Virus record (IMG/VR): IMGVR_UViG_3300032308_001081
Span: 1 to 34,556 of that record
DNA from: a virus
Strand: one strand, 5' to 3'
DNA: 34,556 bases
How positions within the stretch are numbered: the stretch's first letter is position 1; every line of letters starts with the position of its first letter. The position numbers and the translations under genes are program-made. The notes below the pieces were generated by a model. That model saw nothing but the letters and a program-made list of their open reading frames with translations, did not search any database and was not told the DNA's origin. Of this stretch, positions 4,254-23,215 are shown one piece after another.

Positions 4254-6394
4254 GCCTCCAATCTCATTTTAGAATTTCTGTATGCCGTGCGGCCTCTTTC
4301 GCGTATTACGTGCTTGGTGAATCCGCGCTCATCAAGATTAATAACTACCTTACTGCTTGGCTTGCCGTTGATAATCCTTCCAAATCTATCATAATCAAAT
4401 CCCGCGCTGTTTCCGTTTCCGTTGTATGCGAGTTCTTCGATTACGCTGTTGGCCAATTGTGGCGACACCTTGCGGTTATGAATTGCGCTGAGTGCCGTCC
4501 AATAATCCGCGTTAATACCCGCAGGTACAACGCGTTCACCGTGCGATAGCCATGCCATGCCGCTGTCAGATGTTCCCGTTCCCGATGTTTTGAACATTTC
4601 CGTTCCTTGCGCGAATCGCGGCATCGGTTGAGATGCGATGAGTGCTACTTGCGCACCTCCTGCAATACCCGCAGCGGCAGCAAGGGCTACGTTGGGCGCG
4701 GGCGGCGTGCTTAACGCGCGCGTTACGGCAAGAGCGGTGTTAATTGTAGCGGTAATGATGTCGGCTTGCTTTTGATTCTTAAACGCTTGTTCTTTTGCGC
4801 GTCGTTCCTGCTGTCGGTAGCGTTCCTCAATTTGCGCGCGTTGCGCTTCGGTAAGGTCTTTTGTTTGTAATTCAGCATTCATTCTATCCTGCATTGCTTG
4901 CAGGTCGGCATCGAGTTTGCGCTGATTCAATTCTTTGAAAACGTCGAGGCCTACTTGGATGACGGACGCGGCAGTTTCAGCGGCCATCATCATGCGTTTG
5001 CGTTCATCATCTGCGGCCTTTTGCAGGTCGCGTTTGTGGTTCAAAAAGTCCTCGAAGTTCTCAATGTCCGATGCATAGAATTCCTGCATGAGTTGTTCTT
5101 GCGAGATATTGAACTCCTTTGTGGCTTTTAATTGTGCATCCTCAAAGCTGCTGAACTCATCAATCAGATGCCCTAATTTCATCTTAGGTTTCAACTCGAA
5201 TTTTGCGTTCATGTCCCGCGTTATCTCGGTTACATCCTTCATGAGTTCTTCCCGCTTTCTTCGCATCTCGGCCAGTCGCTTATCTTCTATTGCCTGACGT
5301 TTTTTTGCTTCTTCCTCGGCTTTGCGTCGCGCTTGCTCGTCATACTTCGCATTTATCTCTGCTATCTTCCTGCGGTGTTCGTCGTTTAATTGCTCGATAG
5401 CAAAACGGTAGGTTGACTCGGTTATCTTTTGTTCATCGAGTTGTTGCTTTAGTTGCCGATGCTCGCGGTCAAACAATCTCATCTGTTTTAATACTTCCTG
5501 CTCCCTTCCTTTGAATCTGTTTTCAATCGCCCTATCATTAGCTTTCTCCATAACAGATAAATTTTCCTCAAACACGTGCGCTAACCGCGTACTGCTGTCT
5601 TCCGCGTCTGACATGGCCGCCACCACACCCGCGATTGCAGCAACAAGCAAGCTAATACCCATTGTTGCCGCTGCCATTGATGTTGTGATGGTAACACCCA
5701 ACACCCGGGAAGATACAGTGGCAAGTTTTTGAGCGTTGTCGAGGAAAAGCGTTTTCAGTGCTTGATTTCCCGTTGCAAGCGTCGCCAATTCATTTATACC
5801 AGTTAGCACGGCCATTGCCGCCTGAACTTTCAGAAGTGTTTTTTCAAGTTCTTTGTTATCCGCACCCAATGCGGCATAAACACCAGTTGCAATTGTGCCA
5901 ACAGCAGCCAATGCTTGGAATGCTTGAACCGTTGCATCAATTCTCTTTGTGTCTGATGCCAATGCTTTTATACGTTCATTAACGTCACCTATCGTATCCT
6001 CAAGTTCTGCGGCTCTTTTAGTCGCTTCTCGCATCTCCTTCTCTCCGAGCGTTCCGCGCGCTATCTGCGCCTTTAATTCGCGCAGTTCCTGCTTCATGGA
6101 CTTAACCTTTTGCGCTCCCTTTTGCGCTTCTTCGCCCATGTTGCCTATCTCAGTAGCGGCTTCTTTAAGCACTTCTCCGCGTATGCTATCAGCCACGTCC
6201 TTTGCTTCGGTGGCAAGTTGCCCCATCGCCGTTGCTGACTGATTTACAGATGCAATGTATTCGCGCTGCTCTTTGTTGAGTTGCTCAACTTTCGCGGCAT
6301 CTTCGGCAGTTATTTTCCCGATGAGTTCAAGCTGCCTTATCGCAGGTTGAAGCCCTTCGGTGTCTGCGGTGAATTTTATTATGACATTATCCAC
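4250..6394 (-). CDS. Tail tape measure protein, 714 aa
   Basis: This is the length ruler of the tail tube, expected inside the tail lumen. The N-terminal half is Ala/Glu/Lys/Gln-rich coiled coil (residues about 20-150). Next come hydrophobic, Ala/Gly/Val-rich stretches (about 160-260), a long charged coiled coil (about 280-560) and an Ala-rich hydrophobic region (AAAAGIAGGAQVALIA). This alternation is characteristic of tape measure proteins. It lies directly after the tail assembly chaperone pair and before tail-tip genes, as in most siphoviruses. With the family rule of thumb of about 1.5 angstrom per residue, the tail would be near 100 nm. There is no lysozyme or peptidase motif. Confidence 0.85.
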   Translation of the reverse strand: MDNVIIKFTADTEGLQPAIRQLELIGKITAEDAAKVEQLNKEQREYIASVNQSATAMGQLATEAKDVADSIRGEVLKEAATEIGNMGEEAQKGAQKVKSMKQELRELKAQIARGTLGEKEMREATKRAAELEDTIGDVNERIKALASDTKRIDATVQAFQALAAVGTIATGVYAALGADNKELEKTLLKVQAAMAVLTGINELATLATGNQALKTLFLDNAQKLATVSSRVLGVTITTSMAAATMGISLLVAAIAGVVAAMSDAEDSSTRLAHVFEENLSVMEKANDRAIENRFKGREQEVLKQMRLFDREHRQLKQQLDEQKITESTYRFAIEQLNDEHRRKIAEINAKYDEQARRKAEEEAKKRQAIEDKRLAEMRRKREELMKDVTEITRDMNAKFELKPKMKLGHLIDEFSSFEDAQLKATKEFNISQEQLMQEFYASDIENFEDFLNHKRDLQKAADDERKRMMMAAETAASVIQVGLDVFKELNQRKLDADLQAMQDRMNAELQTKDLTEAQRAQIEERYRQQERRAKEQAFKNQKQADIITATINTALAVTRALSTPPAPNVALAAAAGIAGGAQVALIASQPMPRFAQGTEMFKTSGTGTSDSGMAWLSHGERVVPAGINADYWTALSAIHNRKVSPQLANSVIEELAYNGNGNSAGFDYDRFGRIINGKPSSKVVINLDERGFTKHVIRERGRTAYRNSKMRLEA

Positions 6395-10428: not shown

Positions 10429-10875
10429 TCAGATTTCTATTTCAGTACCATCGGGTAGCCTCATGACTGTTTTTTCCTTGCCCTCAATGGGTTTAGATGC
10501 TTCCTTGCCGCCATACTTCCACGGGCAGAGTGCCGCCGCTTTTTTCAATCGAATCTCAACCTGCAATCGCGCGCGCTGCGCATCTCCTCGTGGCATTTGG
10601 CCCGTGAACAAATCAGGCTTGAGTTGCATCTGCTCATCCGCAATTCGCATGGCAGCGTTAACGAGAATATCGGCTTGGATTTCATTTGCGGCCTCAAATT
10701 TCGATTTTCTCGGCTCGGACGCCTCAATATAGGCGCGAAGGTCGAAAATTGAAATTTCGCGCTCTTTTGCAAAAATCACGGCGTCGCATTCACGAGTGGT
10801 TAATTCGTAAATCAGGTCGTTGAATATGTCCTCGGTGACTTTCACGGTGTCAAATATACTGACTTTTACACTCAT
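10429..10875 (-). CDS. terS: Terminase small subunit, 148 aa
   Basis: DNA-recognition partner of the large terminase. The region ASEPRKSKFEAANEIQADILVNAAMRIADE followed by RARLQVEIRLKKAAALCPWKYG matches the layout of small terminases: helix-rich residue run, then the conserved R(L/V)..R.....PkkYG segment. The ATG at 10875 is preferred over an in-frame GTG at 10890 that lies within a repeated 9-bp motif. There is no Shine-Dalgarno sequence. As first gene downstream of the 400-bp control region it should be expressed late. Confidence 0.8.
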   Translation of the reverse strand: MSVKVSIFDTVKVTEDIFNDLIYELTTRECDAVIFAKEREISIFDLRAYIEASEPRKSKFEAANEIQADILVNAAMRIADEQMQLKPDLFTGQMPRGDAQRARLQVEIRLKKAAALCPWKYGGKEASKPIEGKEKTVMRLPDGTEIEI

Positions 10876-10881
10876 GTTTTT

Positions 10882-11175
10882 TGTTGACACTTAAAACATT
10901 GATTTACAATTACTTGCAGAAATGTAAACAAAAAAATCGGATTTTGTTTACATCGATGTTGACACGGAAACCCGCGCCAGACGAAGGATATTTATATATA
11001 TTTATATGTAAACAATATATATACATACATACACGCGTCCGCGCCCTTGCATATATGTGTGCATGTGTGTATGCCTTTTTTTGCGTTTACATCGTTTACA
11101 CGCTGTAACTCTCTGAGCCTGTGCAAAATAAGTGTCAACATTCGTGTCAACAAAAAATCTAAAAAGTGTTTACAT
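10882..11175. repeat. Cluster of nine 9-bp iteron-like repeats (RTGTMAACA family)
   Basis: Exact copies on the plus strand are: TGTTGACAC at 10882-10890 and 10957-10965; GTGTCAACA at 11132-11140 and 11144-11152; ATGTAAACA at 10922-10930 and 11006-11014; TGTTTACAT at 10945-10953 and 11167-11175. The variants CGTTTACAT (11084-11092) and CGTTTACAC (11093-11101) form a direct pair. In one orientation all fit (A/G)TGT(A/C)AAC followed by A or G. Pairs lie 9 or 12 bp apart centre to centre. Confidence 0.85.
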
Positions 11176-11187
11176 TTATCATTATTG

Positions 11188-11222
11188 ATAAAAAAAACGC
11201 GAAATCTTACGGGACTTCGCGT
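11188..11222 (-). terminator. Intrinsic terminator (minus strand) after primase gene
   Basis: On the minus strand ACGCGAA (11222-11216) pairs perfectly with TTCGCGT (11203-11197) around a 12-base loop and is followed by a run of eight T. It would end transcripts from the early/replication block 56-90 bases after the primase stop, insulating the terminase operon. Confidence 0.8.
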
Positions 11223-11223
11223 T

Positions 11224-11240
11224 AGGGGTTGTCAACCCCT
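11224..11240. repeat. Near-perfect palindrome between the two terminators
   Basis: AGGGGTTG-T-CAACCCCT is an 8+8 inverted repeat with a one-base centre. It lies exactly between the minus-strand and plus-strand terminator hairpins. It could extend either terminator structure or be a protein-binding site; neither can be decided from sequence. Confidence 0.7.
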
Positions 11241-11267
11241 CGGACGTGGAGCGCGTCCGATTTTTTT
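11241..11267 (+). terminator. Intrinsic terminator (plus strand)
   Basis: CGGACG (11241-11246) and CGTCCG (11254-11259) form a 6-bp GC stem with a 7-base loop followed by A and seven T on the plus strand. No plus-strand gene precedes it, so either an untranslated plus transcript starts in the control region or it protects the primase gene from antisense reading. Confidence 0.65.
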
Positions 11268-11277
11268 GTCGATTAAG

Positions 11278-13851
11278 TTAAAAAGGTGCTTCAGCTTCAA
11301 GTTCAATTTCGGAATTCGTTGACGTGAAAAAAGGAATTTTCACCGCTCTTGATGTTACCATCCCGAACCTTTCCGATGTGCATTTTTGAGCGTTGGGAAT
11401 CCGCGTAAGTATCTTTGAGTAATTCGACGCCCACGGGGTATCTTTTAAAATTCGTTGCATCTGAGTATTAGAATTGGCAATTACAAGATAGTGACCAGAT
11501 GTATCGCGTGCCACTTTGACACCTATTCTGTAAAGCCTTTTAATTGCATCAAGGTCTTGATTTGCGGCATCTTCGCATATTTCTTGAATGCTTCGATTGT
11601 GCTTTCCGTGCCTGTCCTCAACTTCAATTATGGTTTCCATAATGTACTGTAATAGCCGCGTCTCATCCTTGCTATCATCGAGTGCCTGTTCTTCATTCCA
11701 ATCATGCTTGAGAACGAAATCCCGGGCTTGCTCGATGGTCACAGCAACGTCATAAGCAAGAGAGAAAGCGCCGGCAAGAATTGGCGCAAGTTGGTCGCCC
11801 ATATTGATGTCGCCCAGATGCTCGGTTACGGCTTGCCTGAAAGTGTCGATGTTGCGAAGGATGACGGGTATCATACGAATAGTGCGCGCTTGCAATCGGT
11901 CGCAAAATTCAGGCGTTATTAGGTGCGCTATTTCTGCGGATAGTTTTTTCCACTTTTCGGCCGCGTCTTCCGAACGGTCGCGAACAAGACTTAGGATGGT
12001 AGTACGGCGTCGGTCGGCCTGTTGCTTAAGCTGAGGCGTGATGGACGAAAACGCAAACATGGATTGAAGCTCATACGACATAACCGAACCAGTGCCTGAG
12101 CCTTTCAATACTTGGCCTGAGTCACCAGATGAAGCACCGCGAATGGCTACGAGAATAGCTTGCATACGCATCTGATCGGAAAACGAATCCCCCTCTGCCT
12201 CATCGAATAGCACCGGCACGGCATCATGTTGTAACGCTTGCCGCAATCCTGCCGCTGTGGTGTCACCTTGCACAGATAACGCGCACTTGCCGATAAGCCT
12301 TCGCATGATGGTACGATATACGGTAGTCTTACCCGTTCCTGCCGCGCCTGTCACCCATAAGTGCGGCCTCCATGATAACACGCCACATATAGGCGCAATG
12401 ACACACCATCCTGCGAGAAGATAGCCGTTAACTTTTCGCTCCCAATGGAATTGAGACAGCAACGTAAGAACTTGCCGCGCTTCTTTTGCCGTTAAAGGGT
12501 TTTCTGTTGATATGTGCAGCTCGCGCGCTTGCTCGTAAACGAATTCAGACTCAAAAGCGTTAAGAGGTGTCACCGCCCCATCAACGATAAGATGCTTTCC
12601 CGCGTGAATTACGATGTGATTATTATCCACCCACGCACCGCGTCCGCGGATTCGTGATGGATTGAAGATACCCTTGATGTTGGCTTGTTGAATCAATGAG
12701 TTGCAAGCCGCGTTGATGTCGAATTTACCCTGCTTTGCGGGGTACATACCCTCCCACCAGTTAAGAGGCGCAAGCGTCATAAGGTTGACAACGCTTAGGG
12801 CTGTTGCTTTGAAAATGTTAAGCGTCTTGGTTGACTTAGAATAAAATACATACGCCGGAACATCGCCTGACTTGACGAATCCCATCACACGGAAAGGCTC
12901 ATCTGTATCAGGTGGTGGTGGTGGCGGCGCGGGCGGTTCGGGCTTGGGTATTGGCCTTGCAATATAAAGCTGCTCAGGCGTCAGCCAATCGCGAAATTGC
13001 TCAGGCGTGAGGGTTATATCTGCGGCATCTCCTTTATGTGGCAACTGCGGATGTATTCGCATTACCTTGACCTTGCATGATAACTCGGTAAGAATTGCCG
13101 CAAGTCCTTTCAATTCGCGCGGTTCTTTTTTTGTCATGAGCCATCCGCCGTTCATGCATACTTGCCCTGGCTCATCATTATCAGGCCAAAGAATAACGTT
13201 ACGACCAGTTAGACACGTCCAATCTACGTGTTCAATGCTGTCAATACCGCCATGCCATGTGGTTATGATGAAATCGGGCAATAATCGCTTCGCCGCATCC
13301 ATCGCTTTTTCCCCTTCTGTAATCACCACGGGAACGGATTTATTCGCGGCAAGCTTCTGTCTGTTATACGGATACCGCTTAGGCGGGGCTTGCTTCTGCC
13401 ATGATGCTGCCACGCCGTCGGTGCAGTACGTCATGGGGTAGATAATCTTTTTCTGCCCTGGCGGATCATAACGCACGACAATCGATTCCATTCTTCCGAG
13501 CTCATCGCAATTTTCCCACACAAAAGACGCTCCTTTTGTTGGTGGCGATGGCGCGTCATCAGGTACGGGTATAATTGCGGTGTAAGTAACCTTTATAGGC
13601 TTTTCCTTCATCGGCGGCGCATCACCTGTTATAGACTTAGCTTCGGCATAAGTTATGCCTTGCATTTTCATTATGAAGGATTCAGCCGTCTTGCCTGATT
13701 CGCCGCAAGCAAAGCACTTCCAAACGTTTTTCTCGTCGTTAATCTTTAGCGATTCATGTTTGTCGTCGTGGAACGGGCAGATGCCGACGTGTTCTTTTCC
13801 GCGCTTTTTCAAGTTGACGAATCTCGAAAGCGCGTCTGATAATTGCTCCAT
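11278..13851 (-). CDS. Primase-helicase (CHC2 zinc finger, TOPRIM, P-loop ATPase), 857 aa
   Basis: Replication protein joining primase and helicase modules. The DnaG-type CHC2 zinc finger has C25-x2-H28 and C46-x2-C49 (CPFHDD, CFACGESG). The TOPRIM domain shows VVITEGEKAMDA (E180) and LWPDNDEPG (D223/D225). A Pro-rich linker at about 302-316 precedes a middle domain. The C-terminal ATPase has Walker A GAAGTGKT (503-509) and Walker B VLFDEAEGDS (547-556), in the style of DUF927/SF3-like phage helicases. It synthesises RNA primers and unwinds DNA at the fork. It closes the replication block and abuts the putative origin. Confidence 0.92.
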   Translation of the reverse strand: MEQLSDALSRFVNLKKRGKEHVGICPFHDDKHESLKINDEKNVWKCFACGESGKTAESFIMKMQGITYAEAKSITGDAPPMKEKPIKVTYTAIIPVPDDAPSPPTKGASFVWENCDELGRMESIVVRYDPPGQKKIIYPMTYCTDGVAASWQKQAPPKRYPYNRQKLAANKSVPVVITEGEKAMDAAKRLLPDFIITTWHGGIDSIEHVDWTCLTGRNVILWPDNDEPGQVCMNGGWLMTKKEPRELKGLAAILTELSCKVKVMRIHPQLPHKGDAADITLTPEQFRDWLTPEQLYIARPIPKPEPPAPPPPPPDTDEPFRVMGFVKSGDVPAYVFYSKSTKTLNIFKATALSVVNLMTLAPLNWWEGMYPAKQGKFDINAACNSLIQQANIKGIFNPSRIRGRGAWVDNNHIVIHAGKHLIVDGAVTPLNAFESEFVYEQARELHISTENPLTAKEARQVLTLLSQFHWERKVNGYLLAGWCVIAPICGVLSWRPHLWVTGAAGTGKTTVYRTIMRRLIGKCALSVQGDTTAAGLRQALQHDAVPVLFDEAEGDSFSDQMRMQAILVAIRGASSGDSGQVLKGSGTGSVMSYELQSMFAFSSITPQLKQQADRRRTTILSLVRDRSEDAAEKWKKLSAEIAHLITPEFCDRLQARTIRMIPVILRNIDTFRQAVTEHLGDINMGDQLAPILAGAFSLAYDVAVTIEQARDFVLKHDWNEEQALDDSKDETRLLQYIMETIIEVEDRHGKHNRSIQEICEDAANQDLDAIKRLYRIGVKVARDTSGHYLVIANSNTQMQRILKDTPWASNYSKILTRIPNAQKCTSERFGMVTSRAVKIPFFTSTNSEIELEAEAPF

Positions 13852-17290: not shown

Positions 17291-17366
17291 GTGTGATTTT
17301 GATGATGCAAAGATATATCAGGCTTGATACATTCCAAACTATAAAATGTTAAAAAATGTTAAAAAT
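17291..17366 (-). promoter_or_regulatory. Promoter P1 with operator, leader and upstream repeats
   Basis: Minus-strand Bacteroidota-type promoter: -33 TTG (17337-17335), 19-base spacer, -7 box TATCTTTG (17315-17308). The spacer holds the palindrome TATCA-GGCT-TGATA (17316-17329) directly against the -7 box. Upstream are two direct TGTTAAAA repeats (plus strand 17347-17366, 10-bp period). The 21 bases 17291-17311 of leader and box are identical to those at 21014-21034. A repressor binding the palindrome would block RNA polymerase. Confidence 0.8.
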
Positions 17367-21013: not shown

Positions 21014-21080
21014 GTGTGATTTTGATGATGCAAATGTAGTATCAATTTTGATACATCAAATGTTAAAATTTGTTAAAACT
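21014..21080 (-). promoter_or_regulatory. Promoter P2 with operator, leader and upstream repeats
   Basis: Minus-strand promoter with -7 box TACATTTG (21038-21031) and -33 TTG (21059-21057), spacer 18. The spacer contains the perfect palindrome GTATCA-ATTT-TGATAC (21039-21054), the same operator type as in P1. Two TGTTAAAA-type direct repeats with 10-bp period lie immediately upstream (21061-21080). The leader and box share 21 identical bases with P1. Confidence 0.8.
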
Positions 21081-22669: not shown

Positions 22670-23215
22670 ATGAAAACAACCATCATCACCCAAGCCATAT
22701 TCGCTGCGATCATCATTGCCGCATTTTGGTATTTGCGCCCCGCTGCCGTCAATAAGGCTACCACGACAACAATATCACGTGATACTACCACGGTGCAGAA
22801 TTACTACCCTCAGACGACAATTAACAAGCATTTTCACATTGATTCAAGCAGAACGATTATTCCCAACATCATTGATACTGCTGCAATAATCGAGCGTTTT
22901 TTCACGACAAAAGAATACCGTCAGACTTTGACAGAAAATGAAGTTGAAGTCAGCATTACAGATACCATCGGCAGGAATGCGCTTTTAAGCCGCGTTGTAC
23001 GGGTGCAGAATAATCGAGCGACACGAATTGAGACCGTGCTGCCCGCGCCTAAGATTGGATTCTATGGAGGCCTTCGCGCGGGGTATATTCAGCGCGGCCA
23101 AGTGCCGGTAATGGTTCAGCCAGTTGTTGGCTTAGAGGTCAAGCGGTGGCGCGTTGACGCGGGATATGATCTGCTTAACCGCGCGGGAGTGGTGGGGGTG
23201 TATCGGAGGTGGTGA
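22670..23215 (+). CDS. Membrane-anchored envelope protein (DUF6808-like), 181 aa; only plus-strand gene
   Basis: An N-terminal membrane helix (IITQAIFAAIIIAAFWYL, residues 4-21) is followed by a Thr-rich periplasmic stem with repeats such as TTTTISRDTTTVQNYYP. The C-terminal domain (KIGFYGGLRAGYIQRGQ to VGVYRRW) reads like the short glycine/aromatic strands of membrane-facing barrels. The layout resembles DUF6808-type proteins of Bacteroidota phages and elements; this match is from memory and moderate. Alone on the plus strand with its own promoter between lysis and early blocks, it could be a spanin-like or superinfection-exclusion protein. Confidence 0.75.
   Translation: MKTTIITQAIFAAIIIAAFWYLRPAAVNKATTTTISRDTTTVQNYYPQTTINKHFHIDSSRTIIPNIIDTAAIIERFFTTKEYRQTLTENEVEVSITDTIGRNALLSRVVRVQNNRATRIETVLPAPKIGFYGGLRAGYIQRGQVPVMVQPVVGLEVKRWRVDAGYDLLNRAGVVGVYRRW

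Follow-up and report, generated by a model that had tools for sequence, protein, structure and literature searches.

The window, which is the whole stretch of 34,556 nucleotides analysed here (IMG/VR record IMGVR_UViG_3300032308_001081), represents a circular or circularly permuted phage genome whose ends overlap by 123 bp. Its longest intergenic gap (387 bp; the second longest measures 215 bp) separates a gene encoding an 857-aa primase-helicase (11278..13851, minus strand) from terS (10429..10890, minus strand; open frame as listed), which encodes an Sf6-type terminase small subunit and is the first gene of the late operon. The primase side of the gap is closed by terminators on both strands, with an intrinsic terminator following the primase-helicase gene (11196..11223, minus strand) and another on the opposite strand (11240..11260, plus strand). 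Rfam gave no match, and no tRNA was found.

Positions 10882-11175 contain eight exact matches to TGTTKACAY, and three more are present in the rest of the window; 1.5 are expected in the whole window, and the maximum over 100 shuffles was six. The cluster of 9-mers that the initial annotation had described in a long non-coding region is thereby borne out, as is its concentration there relative to the rest of the genome. Including two one-mismatch sites, CGTTTACAT and CGTTTACAC, the array comprises ten sites. Site 1 (TGTTTACAT, 11167..11175, plus strand) is the outermost on the primase side and is followed by an inner pair with 12-bp spacing, sites 2 and 3 (both TGTTGACAC, 11144..11152 and 11132..11140, minus strand). 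Sites 4 (CGTTTACAC, 11093..11101) and 5 (CGTTTACAT, 11084..11092) form a 9-bp pair on the plus strand, and site 6 (TGTTTACAT, 11006..11014, minus strand) lies within an AT-rich core. A second 12-bp inner pair on the plus strand consists of sites 7 (TGTTGACAC, 10957..10965) and 8 (TGTTTACAT, 10945..10953), followed by site 9 (TGTTTACAT, 10922..10930, minus strand) and site 10 (TGTTGACAC, 10882..10890, plus strand), which adjoins the terS promoter. The pair spacings of 9 and 12 bp were correctly noted before; back-to-back sites 22-23 bp apart recur as well. The versions carrying G (GTCAA) had been placed at both outer sides of the cluster, but the outermost primase-side site (11167) is a T version.

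The sites flank the AT-rich core, as had been proposed. With duplex stability calculated from nearest-neighbour energies over 50-bp stretches, the least stable 50 bp of the window (10983..11032) lie inside the array and constitute a putative DNA unwinding element. The least stable 50 bp of every relative tested (L004, L020 and L021) likewise lie inside the respective array. A switch in cumulative GC skew at this position had been suggested as a check; none is present, the detrended extremes falling at 7.9 and 15.1 kb, and GC, AT, purine and keto skews over the window show no switch at the array. The skews thus speak neither for nor against an origin here. Beside site 7 and the core lies a GC-rich box of 14 nt, CTGGCGCGGGTTTC (10967-10980, minus strand), which is invariant in all relatives and outside what a model based on the iterons explains.

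The same cluster is found upstream of terS in three relatives (L003, L004 and L005) whose large terminase subunits (TerL) are 82-83% identical to that of the window. L004 and L005 do not differ within the array and were counted as one lineage. All ten sites occupy the same alignment columns in the same orientation in three lineages, and a distance of 168-171 bp separates the mirrored inner pairs in every genome. In the alignment of the window with its relatives, 73 of the 80 site columns are identical, versus 109 of 263 other columns (p=2.5e-16), and the intergenic DNA of the window is just 62% identical to that of the relatives. Of the seven site columns that vary, five correspond to the G/T position. 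The G and T versions, which had been taken for two kinds of site, are therefore interchangeable forms of a single site type, exchanged at the same positions between relatives.

The only plus-strand gene of the window (22670-23215) has a homologue that lies between the primase-helicase gene and the array in L004 and L005, where it is the one gene separating them, and ahead of the array in L003. As its location differs among the window, L003 and L004/L005, this gene has moved. The circular relative G004 (L030 16071-16443 plus L029 1-331) contains an AT-rich non-coding region of 580 bp, which precedes SSB-like and terminase genes and has TGTCA/GTGTTAA-like repeats. This region is probably a diverged origin, with repeats too indistinct to be called an array. 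In L003, short tandem repeats (acttgaaaaaacgtattacacaaatcaaaaa) at positions 1-160 precede a gene for a small basic protein. Nucleotide searches identified no close relative of the window among named phages, and the relatives of the primase-helicase in named phages share less than 60% identity with it. A prophage search of 84,980 species genomes did not recover the array pattern, and a TerL search of species genomes found no relatives.

The primase-helicase consists of a CHC2 zinc finger, a TOPRIM-like region, an AAA+ helicase and a C-terminal winged-helix-like domain, whose last helix and beta hairpin (codons 811-840; 11332..11421, minus strand) are predicted to form the specificity element. 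The first site lies ~100 bp past the stop codon of its gene, which would place an origin directly downstream of the helicase gene. The predicted structure of the protein (mean pLDDT 75) had the SCCmec helicase Cch (5dgk) as its first-ranked Foldseek match (E 2.5e-10). Residues 318-846 align with Cch over 415 residues (Z 13.2), and the SaPI5 Rep scores similarly (Z 13.0). On the complete model, MCM helicases reach scores equal to that of Cch, the likeness lying in the ATPase core. The C-terminal domain alone gives weak structural matches (best Z 4.5; Cch 4.0, SaPIbov1 Rep 3.9), winged-helix DNA-binding proteins among them, and in Foldseek it retrieves nothing at E <0.001. Searches of the protein for Pfam DUF927 or D5/D5_N (E 1e-3) and for the VapE-like domain PF05272 gave no hit. 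A profile search of PDB sequences produced a confident link for the primase end only, and profile comparison of the window's primase family with VapE linked the ATPase core alone, and weakly. Arrays are missing next to the genes of the distant primase relatives L037-L043. The window has no recognisable phage polymerase gene and encodes two HTH-like proteins of 65 and 112 aa. Of these candidates only the primase-helicase has a counterpart in the circular relative G004, and the earlier hint that it is the only candidate initiator is well supported.

Scanning for one array module revealed further arrays of the same word on contigs with 6-11 sites; of the 37 single-module matches that had only 2-3 sites, most were attributed to chance. 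On most of these array contigs, the array directly follows a gene for a 770-820-aa VapE-domain primase-helicase and precedes genes for VRR-NUC and SNF2-like helicase proteins, and in L138 and L147 it is located before terS. A VapE gene is present in eight of nine array contigs tested, the ninth being a 10-kb fragment. These arrays share a common spacing grammar of direct pairs at 9 or 12 bp, back-to-back sites at 21-23 bp, 40-44 bp between pairs and an AT core, and arrays built from other words have spacing peaks at 8-9, 12-13, 20-22 and 44 bp. When the 450 bp after each vapE gene were searched for repeated words of 6-8 bases, a strong array was found directly after the gene in 67 of 93 vapE loci, with many different, mostly TGT-led words. 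In Streptococcus pneumoniae phage phiARI0399 (L161), a 1-kb non-coding gap after a VirE-domain gene (4297-5327) contains seven copies of ATCGGTAG and is predicted to be another origin, with a non-TGT word.

Among near-identical VapE proteins, the word of the array changes only with the last ~25 residues of the protein. Phages that share a word are no more alike than others over VapE residues 1-640 (permutation p=0.20) but resemble each other more over residues 741-773 (p=0.0005, the lowest value reachable with 2000 shuffles). For VapE pairs at least 97% identical over residues 1-735, tail identity (745-773) is at least 0.97 where the word is shared and 0.59-0.69 where it differs. In Clostridioides-type prophages, whose VapE proteins are 99-100% identical over residues 1-650 and differ mainly in residues 745-769, the array is composed of TGTTACCA, TGTCTACA or TGTTGACA according to the VapE tail; the layout of these arrays is much alike, and identical DNA resumes downstream. 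This covariation was observed in the VapE family, and the primase of the window belongs to a different family.

Several known replicons resemble the locus. The satellite phage P4 encodes the alpha protein, a fusion of primase and helicase that reads its own iterons at ori and crr. PMC7145576 describes such a fusion of an initiating helicase with a primase. P4 has two separated sites, in contrast to the single compact array of the window. The annotated origin of Streptococcus phage Sfi21 (NC_000872) is a 302-bp non-coding region that directly follows the primase gene and has mirrored repeat pairs with 9-bp spacing around an AT-rich core, although its word is AGTAAC rather than TGTTKACA and its primase is another one. 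Unrelated vapE phages with such arrays (for example Clostridioides phage phiCDKH02, L122 and L149) share with the window the TGTTKACA word, the spacing grammar, the AT core and an adjoining primase-helicase, while VapE represents another primase-helicase family. As described in PMC7581432, SaPI Rep and SCCmec Cch and Cch2 are AAA+ initiator helicases with a short-repeat origin directly downstream of the gene, the repeats being read by the C-terminal domain; SaPI Rep reads the iterons directly downstream of its own gene in this way, and the isolated C-terminal domain of Cch2 binds its own repeats. The predicted structure of the window protein aligns with Cch, SaPI5 Rep and SaPIbov1 Rep. Characteristics of a SaPI/Cch-type replicon found in the window are the many short repeats, the position after a helicase gene, the repeats flanking an AT-rich core and a Cch/SaPI Rep fold, for which MCM AAA+ cores score alike. 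Unlike those systems, the window protein contains a DnaG-type zinc finger and a TOPRIM-like region, and the window is a free phage with Bacteroidota-type promoters, for which iteron binding is predicted.

Comparison with many other phages indicates that arrays of this type are very probably where DNA copying starts, and the locus in the window is a further case of a known kind of origin. We propose, with a probability of roughly 0.8, that the phage replicates from this array, an origin of the SaPI/Cch kind read by its own primase-helicase. This proposal draws on the array itself, its conservation, the melting-prone core, the like layout elsewhere and the covariation of word and tail in vapE phages. 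The initial annotation had suggested a replication origin with sites bound by a single phage protein, a view well supported by the conservation, the melting core and the similar layout in other phages. The adjacent primase-helicase, probably in the form of two hexamers assembled on the mirrored site sets, would bind the ten 8-9-bp sites via its C-terminal winged-helix domain, melt the AT-rich core at 10983-11032 and then load itself. It could subsequently unwind the DNA in both directions and lay primers for the host polymerase. Through site 10 (10882), located directly before the terS promoter, late transcription may also be tied to occupancy of the origin. An unexplained intergenic repeat cluster would thus become a predicted origin with a named reader, and a repeated, mostly TGT-led word just after a primase-helicase gene could serve as a rule for finding origins in many phages.

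The initial annotation had favoured an activator-driven late promoter, on the grounds that no TAnnTTTG promoter precedes the terminase operon. The premise of this preference is false: a Bacteroidota-type -7 box, TATATTTG, is located before the terminase genes at 10858-10851 (minus strand) and is conserved at the same place in relatives (TATATTTG in L005, TATCTTTG in L003). An activator-dependent promoter would be expected to lack such a host-type box. The region is nevertheless the start of the late operon, and a distance of 23-24 nt separates the box from the terS-proximal site in the window (23 nt) and all relatives, which puts that site at the position of a -33 element, in a range without TTG. 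A control region whose sites are recognised by a phage activator or repressor to turn on the terminase operon is still quite unlikely, because ten mirrored sites around the least stable DNA far exceed the need of a promoter, most arrays of vapE phages follow the primase-helicase gene and precede replication genes, away from the late operon, and the word of the array follows the helicase tail. Given the constant distance between box and site, a regulatory side effect is possible, with the last site (10882) having a secondary role in late transcription. In the window, the box ends a few nucleotides before a GTG that is a potential terS start (box and GTG within 10843-10858), and in L003 an ATG follows it at a similarly short distance. 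The late mRNA may lack a leader; alternatively, translation of terS may begin at a codon more downstream.

We consider it very improbable that the array is a packaging site (pac or cos) recognised by the small terminase subunit, the gene for which begins next to it. Although terS adjoins the array in the window, its relatives, L138 and L147, and the invariant 14-nt GC-rich box beside the core might suit such a function, terS is absent from the neighbourhood of most arrays built from the same word. Moreover, the terS genes that do adjoin arrays belong to three Pfam families (Sf6_terminase, Terminase_2 and GP3_package), and the layout equals that of the annotated Sfi21 origin. Another alternative retains the origin and assigns its recognition to a small phage HTH protein or a host protein; the primase-helicase would be recruited in a later step. 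The window does encode HTH-like proteins, and the covariation evidence comes from VapE, outside the primase family of the window. We regard this version as unlikely, as the HTH proteins have no counterpart in G004 and the word of vapE phages follows the helicase tail, which is not expected from a host protein.

Recognition by the primase-helicase itself leads to a further proposal, which we judge somewhat better than even: the last ~25 codons of the primase-helicase gene and the array just behind them would form an exchangeable specificity cassette, in which the word is rewritten at all sites when the tail changes and the spacing stays fixed. The array of the window would be one instance, with a word common to unrelated helicase families. 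A formal alternative is linkage alone, as the tail codons and the array adjoin on the DNA and one recombination tract could carry both with no functional tie; for every site of an array to change in concert, however, the reader must have changed too. If the cassette proposal is correct, swapping could protect the initiator from titration or hijacking by origin decoys or satellites. The new part of these findings may be the cassette-like way in which phages exchange helicase tail and array word; no report of such exchange was found in the literature searched, which covered few subscription journals. The near-identical VapE proteins that differ mainly in tail and word provide a ready-made test of how an initiator helicase chooses its DNA, and bear on whether phages diversify their origins to escape satellites or origin decoys.

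Elsewhere in the window, two early TAnnTTTG promoters on the minus strand (17315 and 21038) have a downstream stretch in common, CATCATCAAAATCACAC. Directly upstream of both lies the palindrome TATCA-N4-TGATA (17316-17329 and 21040-21053), a candidate operator of an early regulator.
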